Of a DNA stretch of 64,000 bases, positions 24,636 through 43,144 are shown piece by piece; the first letter of the stretch is position 1; each line of letters begins with the position of its first letter. The notes under the pieces are model-generated. The model was not told the origin of the DNA and searched no databases. It saw only the letters and a program-made list of their open reading frames with translations. Made by a program: the position numbers and the translations under genes. The DNA is taken from the NCBI GenBank assembly GCA_037481875.1, contig JBBFKY010000002.1:415264-479263 (forward strand). The letters run 5' to 3'. Origin of the DNA: Desulfosoma sp. Its GTDB lineage: Bacteria; Desulfobacterota; Syntrophobacteria; Syntrophobacterales; DSM-9756.

Positions 24636-25244
24636 CTAGGGTTCCGCCGTTTCGGCCGAACCTTGCGCTTTTTGGATAAGCAGGATGTAATTTTCTAAAA
24701 GAAGCCGATGATCATTTTTGGTCATTTTCTTTCGAATTCGCTCCTCAGCCATCGCTACGGCTGCTTCCACCACTTCAGCTCGAAACCTCTTTTTGGCGTC
24801 TTCAAATTCGCGCGCCGCCACCAGCTTGGCTTCCTCGAGAATCTGTCGGCGAGTGCGATCAGCTTGGGCAAGAATTTTGTTTTTTTCTTCCTGGCCGATC
24901 TCGTGGTAGTAGGCCTTGATGGCTTTGATCTTTTCATCCAGCCCGGCCAAAAGCTCTTCCAGCTCACGACGACGGCGTTCCAATGCCCTTTCCTTTTCGG
25001 CGATCTCGTCAAAGACACCGGCGATGGCCAGTTGGCGCCCTTTAATAAAATTGACCACAGGCCCCTTCAGGTACTTAAGAATGAAATAGACGAGTATACC
25101 GAAATTGATCCATCGCCAGCTCAGATCCCATAGGGATCTCTCAATGCCAAAAACAGTCGACGATGCACCGAAGGCGTAGTCACCCCCTTCAAAGGCGACC
25201 AGCAGCAGCCCCCCCATGATCCCTAAGGCTCGCACCATGCTCAA
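24636..25244 (-). CDS. atpF: ATP synthase F0 subunit b
   Basis: 202 residues. A hydrophobic start (about 5-28) and the membrane segment WINFGILVYFILKYL (about 45-60) are followed by a long charged helix (KERALERRRRELEELLAGLD, ADRTRRQILEEAKLVAAREF) that forms the peripheral stalk coil, ending near ENYILLIQKA. It follows the shorter b' gene by 12 bases, the arrangement used where b and b' form a heterodimer. The N-terminal extension may be a cleaved or second membrane segment. In many genomes atpH and F1 genes follow; here the next sequence is a tnpB relic. Confidence 0.9.
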   Translation of the reverse strand: MSMVRALGIMGGLLLVAFEGGDYAFGASSTVFGIERSLWDLSWRWINFGILVYFILKYLKGPVVNFIKGRQLAIAGVFDEIAEKERALERRRRELEELLAGLDEKIKAIKAYYHEIGQEEKNKILAQADRTRRQILEEAKLVAAREFEDAKKRFRAEVVEAAVAMAEERIRKKMTKNDHRLLLENYILLIQKAQGSAETAEP

Positions 25245-25256
25245 ACTCCAGATCCT

Positions 25257-25682
25257 CTATATTTTACGCCCCACGACCTTCGTGGAAATTTCGTAAGAGA
25301 GTGCCCGAGCCAGTTTCTGGAGGCTCTTTCTTGCCTTGCCCAGCTCAACCTCCACTTCGGCACGCACCTTCTGGCGCAAAGCCGTGATCTCCTCCTGAGT
25401 CGTCAGCATCGTCCGATGGGCTTCTTCCTGTGCCTCTGCCTTGGCTGCCTCACTAGCTTTCCGGGCCTCCCACTCCGCCGCTTGAAGCCTAGCGTTGTAA
25501 GCCGCCGCCATCTTTTCCAATTCCACTCCCGCAGATTCCAGCGCTTTTTCTTTTTCTTCAATCGAGCGTTCCCGCTCTAAAACAAGCCGGTAAAGCGGCT
25601 GGATCATCATGCGGTTTAGAATGAACAGAAGCACCAGGAACAAGGTCACTTGAACGACGATCGTTGCATTCAGGCTGATCAT
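25257..25682 (-). CDS. atpF': ATP synthase F0 subunit b'
   Basis: 141 residues with one N-terminal membrane helix (VVQVTLFLVLLFILNRMMI), the PLYRLVLERERSIEE junction typical of b/b', and an uninterrupted alanine- and glutamate-rich coiled coil to the end. It is shorter than the partner b subunit and has no C-terminal delta-binding region as long as that of atpF. It sits between the single-hairpin c gene and atpF in the F0 operon. Confidence 0.88.
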   Translation of the reverse strand: MISLNATIVVQVTLFLVLLFILNRMMIQPLYRLVLERERSIEEKEKALESAGVELEKMAAAYNARLQAAEWEARKASEAAKAEAQEEAHRTMLTTQEEITALRQKVRAEVEVELGKARKSLQKLARALSYEISTKVVGRKI

Positions 25683-25713: not shown

Positions 25714-26007
<294 letters not shown>

Positions 26008-26982
26008 TTAAGCGTTCAGAATCAGTAAAAGCGCCACGACGAGCGAATAGATTCCCGTCGATTCGGATACCGCCTGTCCAACCAACATCGTGCGGGTTAA
26101 CAAAGTAGCCTCTTCGGGCACACGGCCAATCTGATCCAAAGCATAGTAGCCTGTGATGCCTTCACCGATCCCAGGACCGATCCCTCCAAACCCCATCGCC
26201 AAGCCCGCTCCCAGCAGAGCAAAAGAAGGAACATAGCTGGTGCTTTCCGGAAACCCTTTGAAAATCAGGATGAGACTGATCAAAAAACCGTAAATCGCCG
26301 TGGATTGCGTCGTTCCCATGCCCACCAACATTGCCGTGGTGATAGACCTTTGTGCTTCTGGATTACGCGCCAGGCTGCGGCAGGCTCCGGCTCCCACCAC
26401 GCCTCCACCCATCCCGGGTCCAATGGCAGCCAAGCCCGTGGACAATCCGGCGCCGACTAGGGCCGCCCAATAGGGGTAGTAGGGTTTGGAGCCAAAGTCC
26501 AAAAACATGAGAAGAAAGGCGACGACCAAGCCAAAGATACAGGGCGTTTGAGTGATGGAGGATCCGATCAGCATGTTCAAGGTAATCTGACCCCCGGCAC
26601 TCGGCTGCCGTCCTATTGCTACACAGGCCTCCGCGGCCGGATATCCTGCACCGATGCCGGATCCGACAGCGGAAAGTCCAGCCGATAGGCCCGCACCCAC
26701 ATAAGCCCAAGCTGCCAAAACCGTTTTTCCCTCCAAAGCACCGAACATCAACAGCATGGAAACGACGAGAGCGAAAATACCTGCCGTTTCCGCAATGGCT
26801 TGGCCGGTCAGCATCGTCTTCAAAATATCCCCGGACATTCTCGGACGATAGCTCAAAATGCTGTTGGCCTTACCCGCGGTATAGCCTTCACCCAAAGCGG
26901 CGCCAATGGCCCCAAAACCGACGGACACACCTGCCCCGAAATAACTTGCCGCGTGAATCCATGTGATTTGGTCAATGGCCAT
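26008..26982 (-). CDS. ATP synthase F0 subunit c with four fused hairpins (eight helices), two sites lacking the ion-binding Glu
   Basis: 324 residues made of four tandem c-type hairpins (about 1-82, 83-162, 163-242, 243-324), each with the helix-loop-helix AGxSxGxxAxG...GxGx pattern. Ion-site residues by hairpin: 1 has E32 and E65 (AIAETAGIF); 2 has A112 and Q145 (SITQTPCIF); 3 has G193 and Q226 (TTQSTAIY); 4 has E274 and E307 (VSESTGIY). So only hairpins 1 and 4 keep the carboxylates. Fused c with a silenced site is known as a duplication (Acetobacterium woodii c1); a fourfold F-type fusion with two silent central hairpins is not one I know. It lies 1 base from atpB and upstream of the single-hairpin c. 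Confidence 0.93.
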   Translation of the reverse strand: MAIDQITWIHAASYFGAGVSVGFGAIGAALGEGYTAGKANSILSYRPRMSGDILKTMLTGQAIAETAGIFALVVSMLLMFGALEGKTVLAAWAYVGAGLSAGLSAVGSGIGAGYPAAEACVAIGRQPSAGGQITLNMLIGSSITQTPCIFGLVVAFLLMFLDFGSKPYYPYWAALVGAGLSTGLAAIGPGMGGGVVGAGACRSLARNPEAQRSITTAMLVGMGTTQSTAIYGFLISLILIFKGFPESTSYVPSFALLGAGLAMGFGGIGPGIGEGITGYYALDQIGRVPEEATLLTRTMLVGQAVSESTGIYSLVVALLLILNA

Positions 26983-26983
26983 G

Positions 26984-27658
26984 CTACTTTACCTGCACCG
27001 AAATGTAGACGAGGGTTAACATTGTGAACACAAACGCCTGAACCGTCCCCACAAAAAGTCCGAAGAACCCGTAAAGAAACGGGGGAATGACCAAGCCGTA
27101 AACCAGATGCGAAACCACGAGAATGATGATGGACCCACCCATGATGTTTCCATAAAGACGGAAAGATATGGAAATCACCTTGGCCAGCTCGCCGATGACG
27201 TTAAGAGGCATCATAAAAAACACCGGTTCAAAATATTCCTTGGCATACCGCCAGAAGCCCTTCGTCTTGATTCCCGCATAATGGGCAATGATAAAACCCA
27301 TTATTCCCAAACCAAGCGTGGTGTTCAGGTCTTTTGTCGGTTCATCCATGTGAGGCAAGACGCCGATCCAATTGGAAAGAAGAAGGAACATGAAAAGAGA
27401 GCAAATGAGGGGAAAATACTTTTTGGCCATTTTCTCGTCTAAGGCATCTTTGGTCAAATTCCAAAATGTCTGCACGAAAAGTTCCGCCACCATCTGGCAT
27501 GGGTTGGGCACATACTGAGTCTTACGGGTGGCGTAGAAAGCAAAGACGATGAGAAGGCCCATGACGGTGAGCGTCATCACGATGGTCGTGGCATTGAACA
27601 CGAGGTGATAGCCTGCCACGTCCAAAGTCCATACCCATACGTGGGTCAATTCTTCCAT
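26984..27658 (-). CDS. atpB: ATP synthase F0 subunit a
   Basis: 224 residues, about five to six membrane helices. The invariant arginine is R167 in VISISFRLYGNIMGG, and the final helix GTVQAFVFTMLTLVYI carries the conserved Gln. It faces the c ring to pass ions. The protein is short at the N-terminus like other bacterial a subunits of the Na+ or SRB type. Reading order in the operon is atpZ, atpI, atpB, fused c, c, atpF', atpF. Confidence 0.94.
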   Translation of the reverse strand: MEELTHVWVWTLDVAGYHLVFNATTIVMTLTVMGLLIVFAFYATRKTQYVPNPCQMVAELFVQTFWNLTKDALDEKMAKKYFPLICSLFMFLLLSNWIGVLPHMDEPTKDLNTTLGLGIMGFIIAHYAGIKTKGFWRYAKEYFEPVFFMMPLNVIGELAKVISISFRLYGNIMGGSIIILVVSHLVYGLVIPPFLYGFFGLFVGTVQAFVFTMLTLVYISVQVK

Positions 27659-27692: not shown

Positions 27693-28124
27693 TTACGCGC
27701 TCGGCTCCTCAGTCGACCGCGCACCCATCCAACGCCTGATCACAAGGTGCTCACCCATGATCGCTAACTGCACGGTAAACAAACCCGCAACAACCGCCCA
27801 AAATCTAAACTGGTCGCTCTTTAACCCCACAATCAAGGGAATCGCCAACAAACCGAACCGAAACGCCAGCGACACAAAGGCCAAACCCGCCGCTCTTTTT
27901 CTGTTCTTAAAGGTTCCAACTTGATACGGTAAAATGTATGCCATAATCACAAAATTAAGGACACTGAATAGTGCCCCCAGAACCAAACCCTTGGCTACAG
28001 CGACAAAACCCAACAGATAGACCACTAGACCGACCATCACGGCCCCAGTAAAGGCTCCTCGCACCAAACGTCTTTGATAACTGTGATAGGCTTGAAAGCC
28101 TTCGGGTGGAATCTGTGCGCTCAT
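27693..28124 (-). CDS. atpI: ATP synthase subunit I (AtpI/UncI-type)
   Basis: 143 residues from ATG 28124, which overlaps the upstream stop as ATGA. Four membrane helices are visible (GAVMVGLVVYLLGFVAVAKG, LVLGALFSVLNFVIMAYILP, AAGLAFVSLAFRFGLLAIPL, FWAVVAGLFTVQLAIMGEHL). Subunit I proteins assist assembly of c rings and Mg2+ supply. The frame continues upstream to 28226 but that part is the other gene's territory. Confidence 0.82.
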   Translation of the reverse strand: MSAQIPPEGFQAYHSYQRRLVRGAFTGAVMVGLVVYLLGFVAVAKGLVLGALFSVLNFVIMAYILPYQVGTFKNRKRAAGLAFVSLAFRFGLLAIPLIVGLKSDQFRFWAVVAGLFTVQLAIMGEHLVIRRWMGARSTEEPSA

Positions 28125-28345
28125 TTCTTGGGAAGCCTCGTTATCTGCCGGTACACCGTCACCGCCCCTCCCACGATGCCGAACAAGATGAAAAGGACAA
28201 GAAACAAGCCGCGCGTTCCGAGCCACTTGTCCAGGTAATAGCCTACCATGAAGCAGAATGCGATACTTCCCGCCATGGTCAACCCCACCTGGGTGACCAA
28301 GGCTAAATATTCTATGCTGTCCCTCTTCTTCTTGAAGTCCTTCAC
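28121..28345 (-). CDS. atpZ: AtpZ-type F0 accessory protein
   Basis: About 74 residues from GTG 28345: a basic start (KDFKKKRDSIEYLALVTQVG) and two membrane helices, LTMAGSIAFCFMVGYYLDKW and GLFLVLFILFGIVGGAVTVY, the AtpZ/AtpI two-helix pattern. The start is uncertain: a TTG about 20 bases upstream has GAGG before it, and the frame is open to 28750. It is the first gene of the F0 operon and overlaps atpI. AtpZ-AtpI pairs form a Ca2+/Mg2+ channel in other bacteria. Confidence 0.72.
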   Translation of the reverse strand: MKDFKKKRDSIEYLALVTQVGLTMAGSIAFCFMVGYYLDKWLGTRGLFLVLFILFGIVGGAVTVYRQITRLPKK

Positions 28346-28558
28346 AACCCTTTGACGGTCCTTTCTCAAAAAGCCTCGACCGTATGGCGTCGGCTTTTTC
28401 TTACCAGAGCGACAAGAATATGTGAAATATTTTTTTAAGCCCTTCCGGGATTTTTTATTCCAGACAGTGATCCGCTCTTGGCAGAAAGGCGCTGATGGTG
28501 TCAAATAGGCGGCACGGTTCGATGCTCTGCAAATTGAAAATCTGGGAGAGTTGCGGCT

Positions 28559-30307
28559 GTGTTGTTCGAAAGGATCTGCCATCTGAAACGGGTCTTCTCC
28601 AAAATGCTTGGGATCTTCTTGGGGGTCTGCACGAGCCTTGCCTTCCTTTTCACTCCTCATGCCTTGGCCCGGCATGCTTCCGTTGAAGAAGCTTTGCAGG
28701 GGATCCTTTCCCACCCAGGTGCGGAAGAAAACCTCTATGCGGCTTGTCAAAGGCTTCAGTCCGCACCGGAAATGATCGCTTTTTACCGGAATCGAGGATA
28801 TGCACCGGCATGGCTGGAAGACTCAAAACCTTCTTCGTGGGCCAGCGATTTCGTTCGTTTTCTTCAAGAGGAAGCCTCCAATCACGGTTTAAATCCAGAT
28901 GATTATCACCTTTCCTGTCTTAAGGCGCTTCTTGATGTGATCGAGAACGCACGTCGTAAACAACGGGAGCTTTCTTCGAGCCTTTTGGCGAATCTGGACC
29001 TGGTGCTGACGGACGCTTTTTTGGTCTTGTTTTCCCATCTCTCTTCTGGACGCGTGAACCCGACGGCTCTGGATTCTCAATGGATGGCCCATGCTCACCA
29101 GGCAGACTTGATCGCCGGACTGGAAGAATTCCTAAACCACCATGATCTTCGCCGCACCCTGCGCCACTTCGCCCCCCCTGACGAAGATTACTGGCGCCTT
29201 GTAGCCGCCGTGCCGACTCAAAGAAAAATGGCCGCTCAAGGACCCTGGCCGGTCTTGCCTGAAGGCCCCAGCCTTCATCCCGGAGAAAAGGACCCTCGAG
29301 TCCCCATCCTGCGCCGTCAACTTTATCTATTGGGTGATTATGCCTCTCAGCCGTCAAAAAGCTCGGACATTTACGACGCGGAGCTGGTCAAAGCCGTCCG
29401 CCGTTTTCAAGAGCGCCACGGGCTCGGTGCCGATGGCGTTGTGGGAAAGAAAACCATTCAGGCACTCAACGTGTCACCCCGAGACCGACTCTTGCAAATG
29501 CTGGCCAATCTGGAACGTCGCCGATGGCTTCCTCGAACCTGGGGGCAACGCTACGTGGTGGTCAATACGGCCGACTATTCCCTGACAGCCTACGAACACG
29601 GTGCCAGCGTATTAAAAATGAAGGTCATCGTCGGTGAAAGTGCCACTTCCACGCCCGTATTCAGTGAAGTGATGCGTTACGTGGAACTGAATCCTTATTG
29701 GAATGTCCCCAAAAGTATCGCGACGGAAGAGATGCTGCCCAAGATACGAAGGGATCCAAGCTATCTGGAGCGGCATCACTATGAACTGTTGGCCACCTCG
29801 GGGGATAGAACGGTCCGGCTGGATCCCACAAGCATTGATTGGCAAACAGTGCGGGCGGAGAATTTCCCCGGCCGAATTCGGCAATTGCCGGGCCCTTGGA
29901 ACGCTTTGGGCCGTATCAAGTTTGTGCTTCCCAACCGATTCAGTGTTTACCTGCATGACACTCCGGAACGGCATCTCTTTCAAAGACCGCACCGGGCTCT
30001 AAGCCACGGCTGCATTCGCCTGGAAAAACCCCTGGATCTGGCCTTGTTCGTCCTTCAAGACGATCCCAAATGGACCCGTGAATCCTTACAAAAACTCATG
30101 GACAGCGGTAAACGTCACATAATTCCGCTGCTCAAGCCATGCACGGTGCATTTGCTCTACATCACGGTTTGGGTCCATGAAGATGGTCGTGTCCACTTTC
30201 GCCAGGACATTTATGGCCGGGATAAAATCTTGGTGGAGGCTTTGAAGCTAGAAAGATTGGCTTTGGAAGCTACCAGTAGCGCACGGGACCCACATCCAGG
30301 TGGATGA
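28559..30307 (+). CDS. L,D-transpeptidase, YcbB-like
   Basis: 582 residues. A signal peptide (about 16-38, GIFLGVCTSLAFLFTPHALA) is followed by an N-terminal scaffold domain (WLEDSKPSSWASDFVRFLQ), a peptidoglycan-binding repeat (RFQERHGLGADGVVGKKTI, about 280-308) and a YkuD domain with the catalytic SHGCIRLEKP (about 482) and an upstream YLHDTP histidine. This is the YcbB/LdtD order. It makes 3-3 crosslinks in the periplasm. GTG 28559 is preceded by GGGAGAG. Divergent from the F0 operon; the 3' end overlaps the convergent gene by 38 bases. Confidence 0.93.
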   Translation: MLFERICHLKRVFSKMLGIFLGVCTSLAFLFTPHALARHASVEEALQGILSHPGAEENLYAACQRLQSAPEMIAFYRNRGYAPAWLEDSKPSSWASDFVRFLQEEASNHGLNPDDYHLSCLKALLDVIENARRKQRELSSSLLANLDLVLTDAFLVLFSHLSSGRVNPTALDSQWMAHAHQADLIAGLEEFLNHHDLRRTLRHFAPPDEDYWRLVAAVPTQRKMAAQGPWPVLPEGPSLHPGEKDPRVPILRRQLYLLGDYASQPSKSSDIYDAELVKAVRRFQERHGLGADGVVGKKTIQALNVSPRDRLLQMLANLERRRWLPRTWGQRYVVVNTADYSLTAYEHGASVLKMKVIVGESATSTPVFSEVMRYVELNPYWNVPKSIATEEMLPKIRRDPSYLERHHYELLATSGDRTVRLDPTSIDWQTVRAENFPGRIRQLPGPWNALGRIKFVLPNRFSVYLHDTPERHLFQRPHRALSHGCIRLEKPLDLALFVLQDDPKWTRESLQKLMDSGKRHIIPLLKPCTVHLLYITVWVHEDGRVHFRQDIYGRDKILVEALKLERLALEATSSARDPHPGG

Positions 30308-30818
30308 AGTCGCTGTAAGTGCCCACACCACCGGCTCTGAAATCGGCCGCAGCGGATCGAAGAGCGTCCAAGGACACCCCTTCAATATAGACATCCGCCG
30401 CCATGGCCTTCATATGATAGCTTTTTTCAGCCACTGAATAGCCCTGTTGGCGAAGGTACTCGTTGTAAACAGGGGATCTGTACCCTGAAACCAAAAAATA
30501 AGGTCGACGATACGCTCTGAGGCGCTGCTGCACCGCATCCAACAAGAGATACAAAGACCGGTCCACAGGGCGAATCGTATTGGTAAAATGGCACCGAAAA
30601 AGATAGTCGAGCCGTCGTAAGGCCCGAGCATCCAGGCGGCCGTTTCGGCTCATGTAACGGACCGTGAGTTGTTCATCGGTATGAAGGTTGTAGACGCTTA
30701 GAACACCGGAAAACCTTCGAAGATAGGGGGCTGCCAGAACCGGGTTCGAGCGCATTAGAACCATGCCGGAACTGAGGCCGGCTCCAAGGATGCCTTTGAA
30801 AAAATCGCGCCTGGTCAT
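30270..30818 (-). CDS. DUF882 / YcbK-type peptidase M15 family protein, Tat-exported
   Basis: About 182 residues from ATG 30818. The start MTRRDFFKGILGAGLSSGMV is a twin-arginine signal. The mature part carries VSGYRSPVYNEYLR, KSYHMKAMAADVYIEG and FIHLDVGPVRYW, which supply the zinc-ligand histidines and aspartate of the M15/DUF882 fold. A periplasmic peptidoglycan peptidase role is likely, next to an L,D-transpeptidase; E. coli also has ycbB and ycbK adjacent. ATG 30842 is an alternative start. Confidence 0.88.
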   Translation of the reverse strand: MTRRDFFKGILGAGLSSGMVLMRSNPVLAAPYLRRFSGVLSVYNLHTDEQLTVRYMSRNGRLDARALRRLDYLFRCHFTNTIRPVDRSLYLLLDAVQQRLRAYRRPYFLVSGYRSPVYNEYLRQQGYSVAEKSYHMKAMAADVYIEGVSLDALRSAAADFRAGGVGTYSDFIHLDVGPVRYW

Positions 30819-31099
30819 CGTTGCCCTCACCTCATGAAACACGACCGCTCCCTATAGCCTAAGCCACGTGAAGCCAGACCTCATCGGCCTTGCCAGGGCA
30901 TGGGGACCTTTCACAAAAACCGGCCCTGAACCGCTCACCTTTTGGCATTTGTCGGCGCAAACCAGGGACGTGCGGGGCCATGTGTTGTCGGGGCTGAGCT
31001 GTGTGTTCGCCCTTGGTTTGGCCGCTTTTACGAAGCTCCTAGCAAAGGCGGCTCATGGTGTCAATCTCACAGATACCATCCCAGGAAGCCGCTAAGGTT

Positions 31100-31708
31100 T
31101 CAGGTTGTTTGACAGACCGCAATAAGTTCTTGCGCAGTGTATTCGGCCACATCCGCCAAGGCGTCCAAAGGCATAAAGGAGGCGCAATCTCCTCCAAAGA
31201 GGCAAGTGACCGCCGCGGGAAACTCATCGTCCGCTTCATGAACGATGTAGTAAAGCGGGATTCGAGGAAACGGGTAAAGAGTGAAAGAAAAATCTCCGGA
31301 CGGTGCATCCGTGTTGCGATGTCCGGAAAAAAACGGAATCAGATGATCCAGCCGAGCCTTGATTTTCGGCACATGGGGTACCAGAACCTGTTCTGCATGA
31401 ACCGCAAAAGCGGCCTGGTAGGGACCGCTGTTGGGAATTTCCTTGAAAGCTTTAAGAGGATGCAACGGGGCGGTTCGTTCAGGAACATGGGCCGCATAAA
31501 TGGCGGTGAGGACCGCTCTTGGTCCCACGTCCAAGACACTATCAAAGAAAACACTTTCACACTGGATGGTGCATCTTTTTCCAAAAGCTTCAAAAGACAG
31601 AGCCCCCGAAGAATCCGGCACAGCAGGCACCGCTTTGGCAAGAGATTCTAGGGATCGATCCCAAGCCTTTTTCAAGTATTCTCGAATGATCTCTTCATAG
31701 CCGCTCAT
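31100..31708 (-). CDS. DUF3786 domain protein
   Basis: 202 residues. The GPRAVLTAIYAAHV, FKEIPNSGPYQAAF, LPLYPFPRIPLYYIVHEADDEF-like stretch and CLFGGDCASFMPLDALADVAEY match the DUF3786 pattern common in Desulfobacterota. The function is unknown; several members are associated with corrinoid or C1 proteins, but no such neighbour occurs here. ATG 31708 has GAGG upstream. It stands alone between the DUF882 gene and the tmRNA. Confidence 0.75.
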   Translation of the reverse strand: MSGYEEIIREYLKKAWDRSLESLAKAVPAVPDSSGALSFEAFGKRCTIQCESVFFDSVLDVGPRAVLTAIYAAHVPERTAPLHPLKAFKEIPNSGPYQAAFAVHAEQVLVPHVPKIKARLDHLIPFFSGHRNTDAPSGDFSFTLYPFPRIPLYYIVHEADDEFPAAVTCLFGGDCASFMPLDALADVAEYTAQELIAVCQTT

Positions 31709-31912: not shown

Positions 31913-32269
31913 GGGGGCGAAAAGGGTTCGACGGAGGTCATGAAGCTTAAGAAGCATGCCGGGGGTCCTGGCCGCCCGTATTCCGGTCGGGGTTAAAGCA
32001 AACGCAGACGACTATGCGTACGCTGCAGCCGCTTAAGCCGGCTGCCGTTCCTTCGGCCTAAGCCCGTACGGCCGAAAGGGGCGTCGACTCCTCGGGCTGG
32101 TTTTCAAGGCCGCGCCCTAGGCCGAGAAAACGAGAACCTTCAGGGCTAGCTTCCAGAGGATCCGGCGCACGGGGAGCCCGCGGAAGCGAAACTCAAAACT
32201 GTGGCTAAGCATGTAGAAACTTAAGCGGAAGGCTTTCGGACGCGGGTTCGATTCCCGCCGCCTCCACCA
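31913..32269 (+). ncRNA. ssrA: tmRNA (transfer-messenger RNA)
   Basis: The 5' end GGGGGCGA and the 3' end CGCCTCC-ACCA pair as the acceptor stem (one G-U), with the T-arm GGTTCGATTCCC just before it, making a one-piece tmRNA of 357 bases with an encoded CCA. The tag frame starts at 31998 (GCA) and ends at TAA 32034-32036, coding ANADDYAYAAAA, a normal proteolysis tag with an alanine tail. It rescues stalled ribosomes with SmpB. SmpB is not in the window. Confidence 0.96.

Positions 32270-33810: not shown

Positions 33811-33886
<76 letters not shown>

Positions 33887-43067: not shown

Positions 43068-43144
<77 letters not shown>

Follow-up and report, generated by a model that had tools for sequence, protein, structure and literature searches.

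The gene described here encodes an F-type ATP synthase c subunit in which four two-helix hairpins are fused (c4). It lies on the minus strand at 26008–26982 of a 64,000 nucleotide stretch of Desulfosoma sp., a sulfate-reducing bacterium (hereafter the window, meaning the whole stretch analysed; GenBank assembly GCA_037481875.1, contig JBBFKY010000002.1, positions 415,264 to 479,263 of the forward strand); frame 1 of the plus strand over the same span is interrupted by stops. The gene is supported by the open reading frame list, a PF00137 search, a per-hairpin table and an AlphaFold model. Its product of 324 residues displayed four PF00137 stretches (E 2.5e-55), with a score of 185 bits over a cut-off of 24 that places it in the two-helix hairpin family, and it scored 137.7 with TIGR01260 (cut-off 43.95) as a sum over the whole protein. 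Hairpin 1 (residues 3–80, 26743–26976) keeps its ion site with E32/E65. Hairpins 2 (residues 84–161, 26500–26733) and 3 (residues 173–241, 26260–26466) are silent, carrying A112/Q145 and G193/Q226, respectively. Hairpin 4 (residues 249–322, 26017–26238) has E274/E307 within a full E/E..SESTGIY site. The one-carboxylate-per-hairpin pattern of F-type c subunits is thus broken at Q145 and Q226. The translation, the invariant neighbouring residues and the per-hairpin table bore out the four fused F-type hairpins, each of the residues above and the two silenced ion sites as given in an earlier description of this DNA made from its letters alone (the original prediction).

The AlphaFold model of c4 was entirely helical (mean predicted local distance difference test score 95.5, predicted template modelling score 0.92). 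Its top Foldseek match was the Acetobacterium woodii fused subunit c1 (4bem_J), with a root-mean-square deviation of 1.3 over 164 columns and a template modelling score of 0.83 over the target. The same chain was the top PDB sequence match in phmmer (6.4e-26) and likewise has Q in its second hairpin, so the original prediction's comparison with A. woodii was apt, this being the nearest relative with a structure. In VIA-align the top row was 8ugc_A (Z 17.3), a designed flat repeat protein, ahead of 4bem_J (Z 15.6); it was set aside as a general helical-repeat match. A V-type origin of c4 was ruled out, as the neighbouring a, b and b' genes are F-type and V-type K models fell under their cut-offs on c4.

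The gene sits in a minus-strand operon with the order atpZ, atpI, a, c4, c1, b', b, where c1 denotes the co-encoded single-hairpin c subunit of Desulfosoma. The atpZ-like gene (28121–28432; PF09527 ATPase_gene1, 60.4 bits) has an uncertain start codon, and a similar gene was found upstream of atpI, a and the fused c gene (cn, for any number of hairpins) in most relatives read. The atpI-like gene follows (27693–28226; PF03899 ATP-synt_I, 34.3 bits against a cut-off of 25.1), its true start probably lying further in. Subunit a (a2; 26984–27658; PF00119, 175.7 bits) retains an arginine within the motif SFRLYGN in the alignment. The c4 gene starts one base past the stop of a, and c1 (25714–25965; PF00137, 69.1 bits) lies directly downstream after a gap of 42 bases, as the original prediction's mention of a single-hairpin c had implied. 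A strong Shine-Dalgarno sequence precedes c1 (25966–25985), with a duplex energy of −11.6 kcal/mol compared to −4.7 for c4 and −6.1 for a. The peripheral-stalk genes b' (25257–25682; PF00430, 53.7 bits) and b (24636–25244; PF00430, 38.5 bits) complete the operon, and the open reading frame list of the window contained no F1 gene downstream of b. The operon therefore encodes an additional Fo sector, made up of a, the rotor, b' and b together with AtpZ and AtpI, but lacks F1. An Rfam scan of the window gave no match within the operon, and signals in promoter and terminator scans of the window did not depart from shuffles by more than about one standard deviation. The minus-strand location, the lack of F1 genes and the wide spread of such fusions described below are points beyond the original prediction.

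The original prediction had raised frameshift or assembly duplication as a possible flaw. Full-length c4 was found at 82 % identity in three further genomes (G004, G005, where it lies on one contig, and G007). According to a scan of named sequences, one of these three copies belongs to the cultured isolate Desulfacinum infernum DSM 9756, and the named isolate Desulfosarcina widdelii carries a cn operon. Among the Desulfosoma genome, G004 and G005, the ratio of nonsynonymous to synonymous substitution rates (dN/dS) was 0.05–0.06 for the whole gene and 0.01–0.11 per hairpin, silent hairpins included, where several dS values were saturated and one was not computable. Because c4 is conserved across genomes with low dN/dS, misassembly, frameshift and decay were ruled out. 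An operon with a fused c was present in 12 of the 40 genomes searched first (the Desulfosoma genome included).

Searches of wider samples revealed a ladder of fusions from two to six hairpins. Within the class, 24 of 55 genomes matched at E≤1e-18, all with a multi-hairpin c, and a sample of the phylum yielded matches in 43 of 395 genomes at E≤1e-17. Hairpins could be counted in 41 of these 43, as the genes of G248 and G290 were cut by contig ends; two genomes had two hairpins, nine had three, 18 had four, seven had five and five had six. The six-hairpin form was matched over its whole length in seven of 42 genomes of the class to which G317 belongs, at 69–100 % identity. The named scan confirmed 513 relatives, the best 80 of which were kept as named loci. 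These 80 were titled as Desulfobacterota genera or families, Deltaproteobacteria, unplaced proteobacteria or uncultured bacteria, and 79 displayed readable fusions of three to five hairpins, the gene of L216 being cut off.

We combined both sets into 122 distinct fusion proteins, dropping 14 identical copies, and recorded the residue at position 65 of each hairpin. The patterns were EE (12), EQ (2), EQE (14), EQQ (5), EQEE (3), EQQE (35, the pattern of c4), EQQQ (30), EQQQE (10), EQQQQ (5) and EQQQQQ (5); L189 comprised an EQQQE protein plus an extra leading fragment scored as a hairpin. Four or more hairpins were present in 89 of the 122. Wherever silent hairpins occurred, they formed a single contiguous block, at most five hairpins long, and the first hairpin was intact. 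Counting hairpins that differ in sequence or position gave 563, in which residue 65 was E in 301, Q in 261 and a gap in one, with nothing else observed. All 261 Q65 hairpins had a non-acid at position 32, and 294 of the 301 E65 hairpins had an acid (E or D) there. The other seven E65 hairpins had L, I, K or V at 32 (e.g. L097 hairpin 4 and L048 hairpin 3) and are perhaps sites en route to H+ use or silence. A tree built from 106 hairpins grouped them by position as first, middle, last or single (seven label changes versus 55 in shuffles), which, given few columns and many open forks, supports only a tendency to cluster by position. This fits one old fusion that would have been lengthened by duplication of silent middle hairpins. 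Two-hairpin proteins with both sites intact (12 distinct, from L055 and eleven of L078–L089) perhaps represent the unsilenced stage of the fusion. In two-hairpin loci that were read, c1 preceded the fused gene (G039 and G044, as well as G041, which is EQ).

The gene content of carrier genomes places the operon in a wider arrangement. The Desulfosoma genome (99.6 % complete) contains a single F-type F1 operon, b'-b-delta-alpha-gamma-beta-epsilon, on contig C6 and a separate ordinary a and c operon with a Z-like gene on contig C5. A hidden second F1 was rejected, as the other two PF00006 matches belonged to a flagellar-type neighbourhood (C1) and a Rho-like gene (C7), both named by eye. An Fo-only operon, a single F-type F1 and a second a and c pair together raise the question of two Fo sectors on one F1. 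Exactly one F-type beta was found in all 12 class members with the operon, the Desulfosoma genome included (85–100 % identity to its own beta; G027 also has an N-type beta). Amongst 47 further genomes, 42 had one F-type beta at ≥75 % identity (a fragment in G046), G277 had an N-type beta only and four (G040, G043, G051 and G052) had no beta at E≤1e-90. A second, N-type beta of 50–54 % identity stood beside the F-type beta in 14 of the 47. N-ATPase operons were seen to coexist with cn operons at L268, L269 and L270 (G027, G182 and G106, respectively). At least two a genes were present in 50 of 51 genomes with cn, the exception being G039 (89 % complete) with one, and the ordinary a and c operon lacked b and F1 genes over the stretch covered in all 18 loci, some of them short or near contig ends.

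The position of F1 genes relative to the cn Fo sector varied in the phylum sample. F1 genes follow it in 13 of 43 genomes, ten of which were read and three called by coordinates; those read include G174, whose contig ends after delta, G290, whose cn is spread across two contigs, and G248, whose cn is truncated. The F1 genes lie apart in 28 (14 read and 14 by coordinates, the latter comprising three with F1 on the same contig at a distance of roughly 100 kb or more, plus 11 called by contig difference only), and G201 and G277 were left uncalled. Counts of PF00430 gave two b'/b pairs in all eight Fo-only genomes and one pair in all 11 linked genomes, where extra matches were N-ATPase or below cut-off. 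The ordinary a and c pair persisted in all 11 linked genomes examined, and since these have only one b'/b pair, it must there share the stalk and F1 or be idle. Both b types and a were present in 70 of the best 80 named loci, with seven others ending at a contig edge. No F1 genes were found on either strand in the flanks covered for these 80 loci, the one weak match (L153, 178.6 bits) being of FliI size by eye. The best reading of this gene content is that the cn Fo and the ordinary Fo may be two interchangeable rotors on one F1.

Comparison with known systems suggests that the c4 system is a new variant of the A. woodii hybrid FoVo rotor (4bem). Both combine an F-type fused c that has E and Q hairpins with a co-encoded single-hairpin c. 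The A. woodii protein has two hairpins, one of them silent, whereas c4 has four, with two E/E sites and two adjacent silent ones, and its relatives reach six hairpins with five silent. The A. woodii fused c is encoded in a full F1Fo operon; in contrast, the Desulfosoma operon is Fo-only, with F1 on another contig and a second a and c pair in the genome. A 2015 review reportedly counted a dozen species with pairs of fused and single c. The V/A-type K (c) subunits of archaea and eukaryotes resemble c4 in their tandem hairpins and frequent loss of sites, but the operon of c4 and its a, b and b' subunits are F-type and V-type K models scored below cut-offs. Such K subunits have three hairpins in Methanocaldococcus jannaschii and 13, all with sites, in Methanopyrus kandleri (PMC2359735). 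The Na+ c11 ring of Fusobacterium nucleatum (3zk1) shares E32/E65/S66/T67/Y70 with c1 and hairpin 4, yet is homomeric and built of single hairpins.

The N-ATPase is likewise a second ATPase beside an ordinary one with a two-carboxylate c. The three N-ATPase loci read had their own beta, epsilon, alpha and gamma, began with beta and contained no more than one b-like gene, consistent with the published beta-epsilon-first order (PMC11738941), whereas the window operon has no F1 but both b' and b. N-ATPase identity was ruled out for the window operon, there being neither F1 genes nor a beta-epsilon start. With the N-ATPase c model TIGR03322, c1 scored 67 bits against a cut-off of 130.85, and c4 reached 174 bits only when its four stretches were added together. 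The 2025 ProAD paper notes c/K subunits of two or more hairpins, some of them lacking sites, and works on the premise that the subunits of an enzyme are co-localized (PMC11738941). In Desulfatiglandales clade B and its relatives, a 2026 study counted between two and four copies of atpE but could not settle ion specificity (PMC13343851). Neither an F-type c of three or more hairpins nor two Fo sectors on one F1 appeared among the literature matches listed, which comprised titles and abstract starts and did not extend to key hybrid-rotor reviews. The original prediction's statement that no fourfold F-type fusion had been described is uncontradicted among those matches, although multi-hairpin c/K subunits in general are known (PMC11738941).

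We consider it probable that the operon encodes a hybrid ring, most probably of one c4 and many c1, with two silent positions, docked on the sole F-type F1 shared with the ordinary a and c. In this proposal c4 would be built once per ring and many c1 would fill the remainder; the two adjacent silent positions would allow fewer ions per turn than there are hairpins; and the hybrid Fo would dock on the cell's single F-type F1, sharing it with the ordinary a and c. Gene arrangement bears on the stoichiometry. The cn start lies 0–4 bases past the stop of a in 69 of 99 operons and overlaps it by four in eight more. The Shine-Dalgarno sequence of c1 was stronger than that of cn in 98 of 101 operons, with medians of −10.3 and −4.2 kcal/mol, respectively, the latter at background level (−5.5 for the best of four random sites, a rough choice). 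One c4 per ring is probable because cn adjoins a and has a weak Shine-Dalgarno sequence whilst that of c1 is stronger; the ring of A. woodii is 9:1 (PMC8904574). The P of the R-x-P loop was conserved in 223 of 260 silent hairpins, 107 of 118 first hairpins, 108 of 108 single hairpins and 43 of 77 later E hairpins, and R45 in 226 of 260, 79 of 118, 77 of 108 and 73 of 77, respectively.

By motif, the coupling ion is probably Na+. Both c1 and hairpin 4 carry the full E32/E65/S66/T67/Y70 set, which is the two-carboxylate Na+ site of F. nucleatum (PMC3692424), and hairpin 1 has E32, E65 and T66 but A67 and F70. The Na+ ligands described for c subunits, Q/E32, E65 and S/T66 (PMC2359735), are all found in c1 and hairpin 4. 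A possible Na+ partner is Rnf; the Na+-linked complex is considered important in Desulfobacteraceae (PMC11887813, PMC5109826). RnfC exceeded its cut-off in 25 of 43 cn genomes versus 75 of 352 others (odds ratio 5.1, p = 1.1e-6, kinship ignored and both scans taken as the same 395 genomes), which is only a hint of such a partnership.

If c4 enters the ring, standard stoichiometry predicts the lowered ion/ATP ratio of the original prediction. Assuming a ring of 11 hairpins, as in known Na+ rings, with one fused subunit and 50 kJ/mol, two silent hairpins would give 3.0 ions per ATP and five would give 2.0, so that about 173 mV and 259 mV per ion, respectively, would be needed versus 141 mV. The preferred role of the hybrid rotor would be that of an ATP-driven Na+ pump, or of a synthase at high sodium-motive force.

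Several observations weigh against this proposal. The calls of separate F1 in 11 of the 28 unlinked genomes come from contig breaks. Identity to the F1-linked pair is low in Desulfosoma, at 60 of 187 positions for b and 37 of 141 for b', and a2 matches the ordinary a (a1) at 71 of 221, so the two Fo sets may not dock on the same delta. G002, a member of the same genus, had no c4 match at E≤1e-18. One locus (L199) holds atpZ, atpI, a, c4 and c1 with no b detected, and in two near-identical loci from different metagenome-assembled genomes (L200 and L203, 9998–10975) the c4 gene is solitary, lacking a, c1, b and F1 genes in its vicinity. The two-carboxylate N-ATPase ring of Burkholderia pseudomallei is H+-coupled (PMC5376962), so a two-carboxylate motif does not prove Na+ coupling. 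No RnfC was found in the Desulfosoma genome at E≤1e-60; Rnf therefore cannot be the general reason for cn. Finally, a single E56Q change in a fused c10 ring of Bacillus PS3 abolished ATP synthesis (PMC8809890), and silent hairpins might thus stall the ring instead of regearing it. Passing a silent block is a mechanical puzzle of the rotor; natural blocks are contiguous, and two E56D changes in PS3 were less harmful the closer together they lay (PMC8809890).

The loss of ATP synthesis in PS3 would also suit a nearly one-way rotor, in which F1 pushes the ring across the dead sector and the complex works as an ATP-driven Na+ pump unable to synthesize ATP. F1 rotates in 120-degree steps, and a dead sector may be easier to traverse when F1 drives pumping than during synthesis. 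Silent hairpins are contiguous in all silent-bearing proteins of the 122 and reach five in a row, compared with about four c subunits that face subunit a (PMC8809890). On the other hand, in linked genomes the cn Fo is encoded with F-type F1, as expected of the main ATP synthase, and in A. woodii one silent hairpin does not prevent ATP synthesis (n = 3.3; PMC5662883). On balance, a nearly one-way rotor is unlikely.

The position of cn next to a and the stronger Shine-Dalgarno sequence of c1 would also suit a fused protein that is mainly an assembly scaffold fixing ring size, with c4 seeding the ring, c1 filling it, and loss of the middle sites tolerated rather than selected for a gear ratio. 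Hairpin number varies from two to six among relatives while c1 varies little, as such a role would allow. Tolerated loss, however, predicts assorted residues at position 65, whereas apart from the one gap only E or Q occurred in 562 hairpins, and the low dN/dS extends to silent hairpins. Fusions with all sites intact also exist (the 12 EE proteins), and silencing is therefore a step separate from fusion. A role chiefly as a scaffold is a distinctly unlikely explanation.

A very improbable alternative is that the Fo-only complex works independently of the cell's F1, as a stand-alone Na+ channel or as a motor for another partner. The lack of adjoining F1 genes in the window and in the flanks of the best 80 named loci is in keeping with this, as is the divergence of b and b' from the F1-linked pair. 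Both b and b', which hold F1 via delta, are nevertheless retained, an Fo of this type adjoins F1 genes in 13 of the 43 genomes of the phylum sample, and the F1-facing R-x-P loop is kept in most hairpins. An artefact of assembly or frameshift, or gene decay, is next to inconceivable given the 82 % identical copies in three genomes, one of them the isolate D. infernum, the low dN/dS and the 89 fusions of at least four hairpins, and no support for it was found in the window gene.

The hybrid rotor on a shared F1, our preferred reading, may extend beyond Desulfosoma. We tentatively raise the doubtful but genuine possibility of a gear-shift in many anaerobes of the phylum, whereby an ordinary rotor for H+ or Na+ and a second one for Na+ would take turns on one F1. 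The second rotor would contain a contiguous dead sector, one to five hairpins long and tuned in length by internal duplication, which would give ion/ATP ratios below those of any F-type enzyme known to us and favour ATP-driven Na+ pumping against steep gradients. The ring of an ATP synthase sets the ions spent per ATP; if true, one catalytic head on two rotors would be an unusual way to change energy currency or gear ratio. The series within one phylum, from zero to five dead positions, offers a natural series for studying how a rotary motor passes an ion-less site. Cultured carriers (D. infernum DSM 9756 and D. widdelii) make both the hybrid ring and the sharing of F1 directly testable.

Several other features were identified in the window outside the operon. 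A tmRNA gene is present at 31913–32269 on the plus strand (Rfam RF00023, 183.9 bits), and two tRNA genes lie at 33811–33883 and 43068–43141. Close to the tmRNA gene, 31100–31708 on the minus strand encodes a DUF3786 protein with no assigned function. At 28559–30842, a plus-strand L,D-transpeptidase gene (YkuD, with scaffold and peptidoglycan-binding domains) adjoins a minus-strand Peptidase_M15_2/DUF882 gene, and the start of the L,D-transpeptidase lies just upstream of atpZ on the opposite strand.
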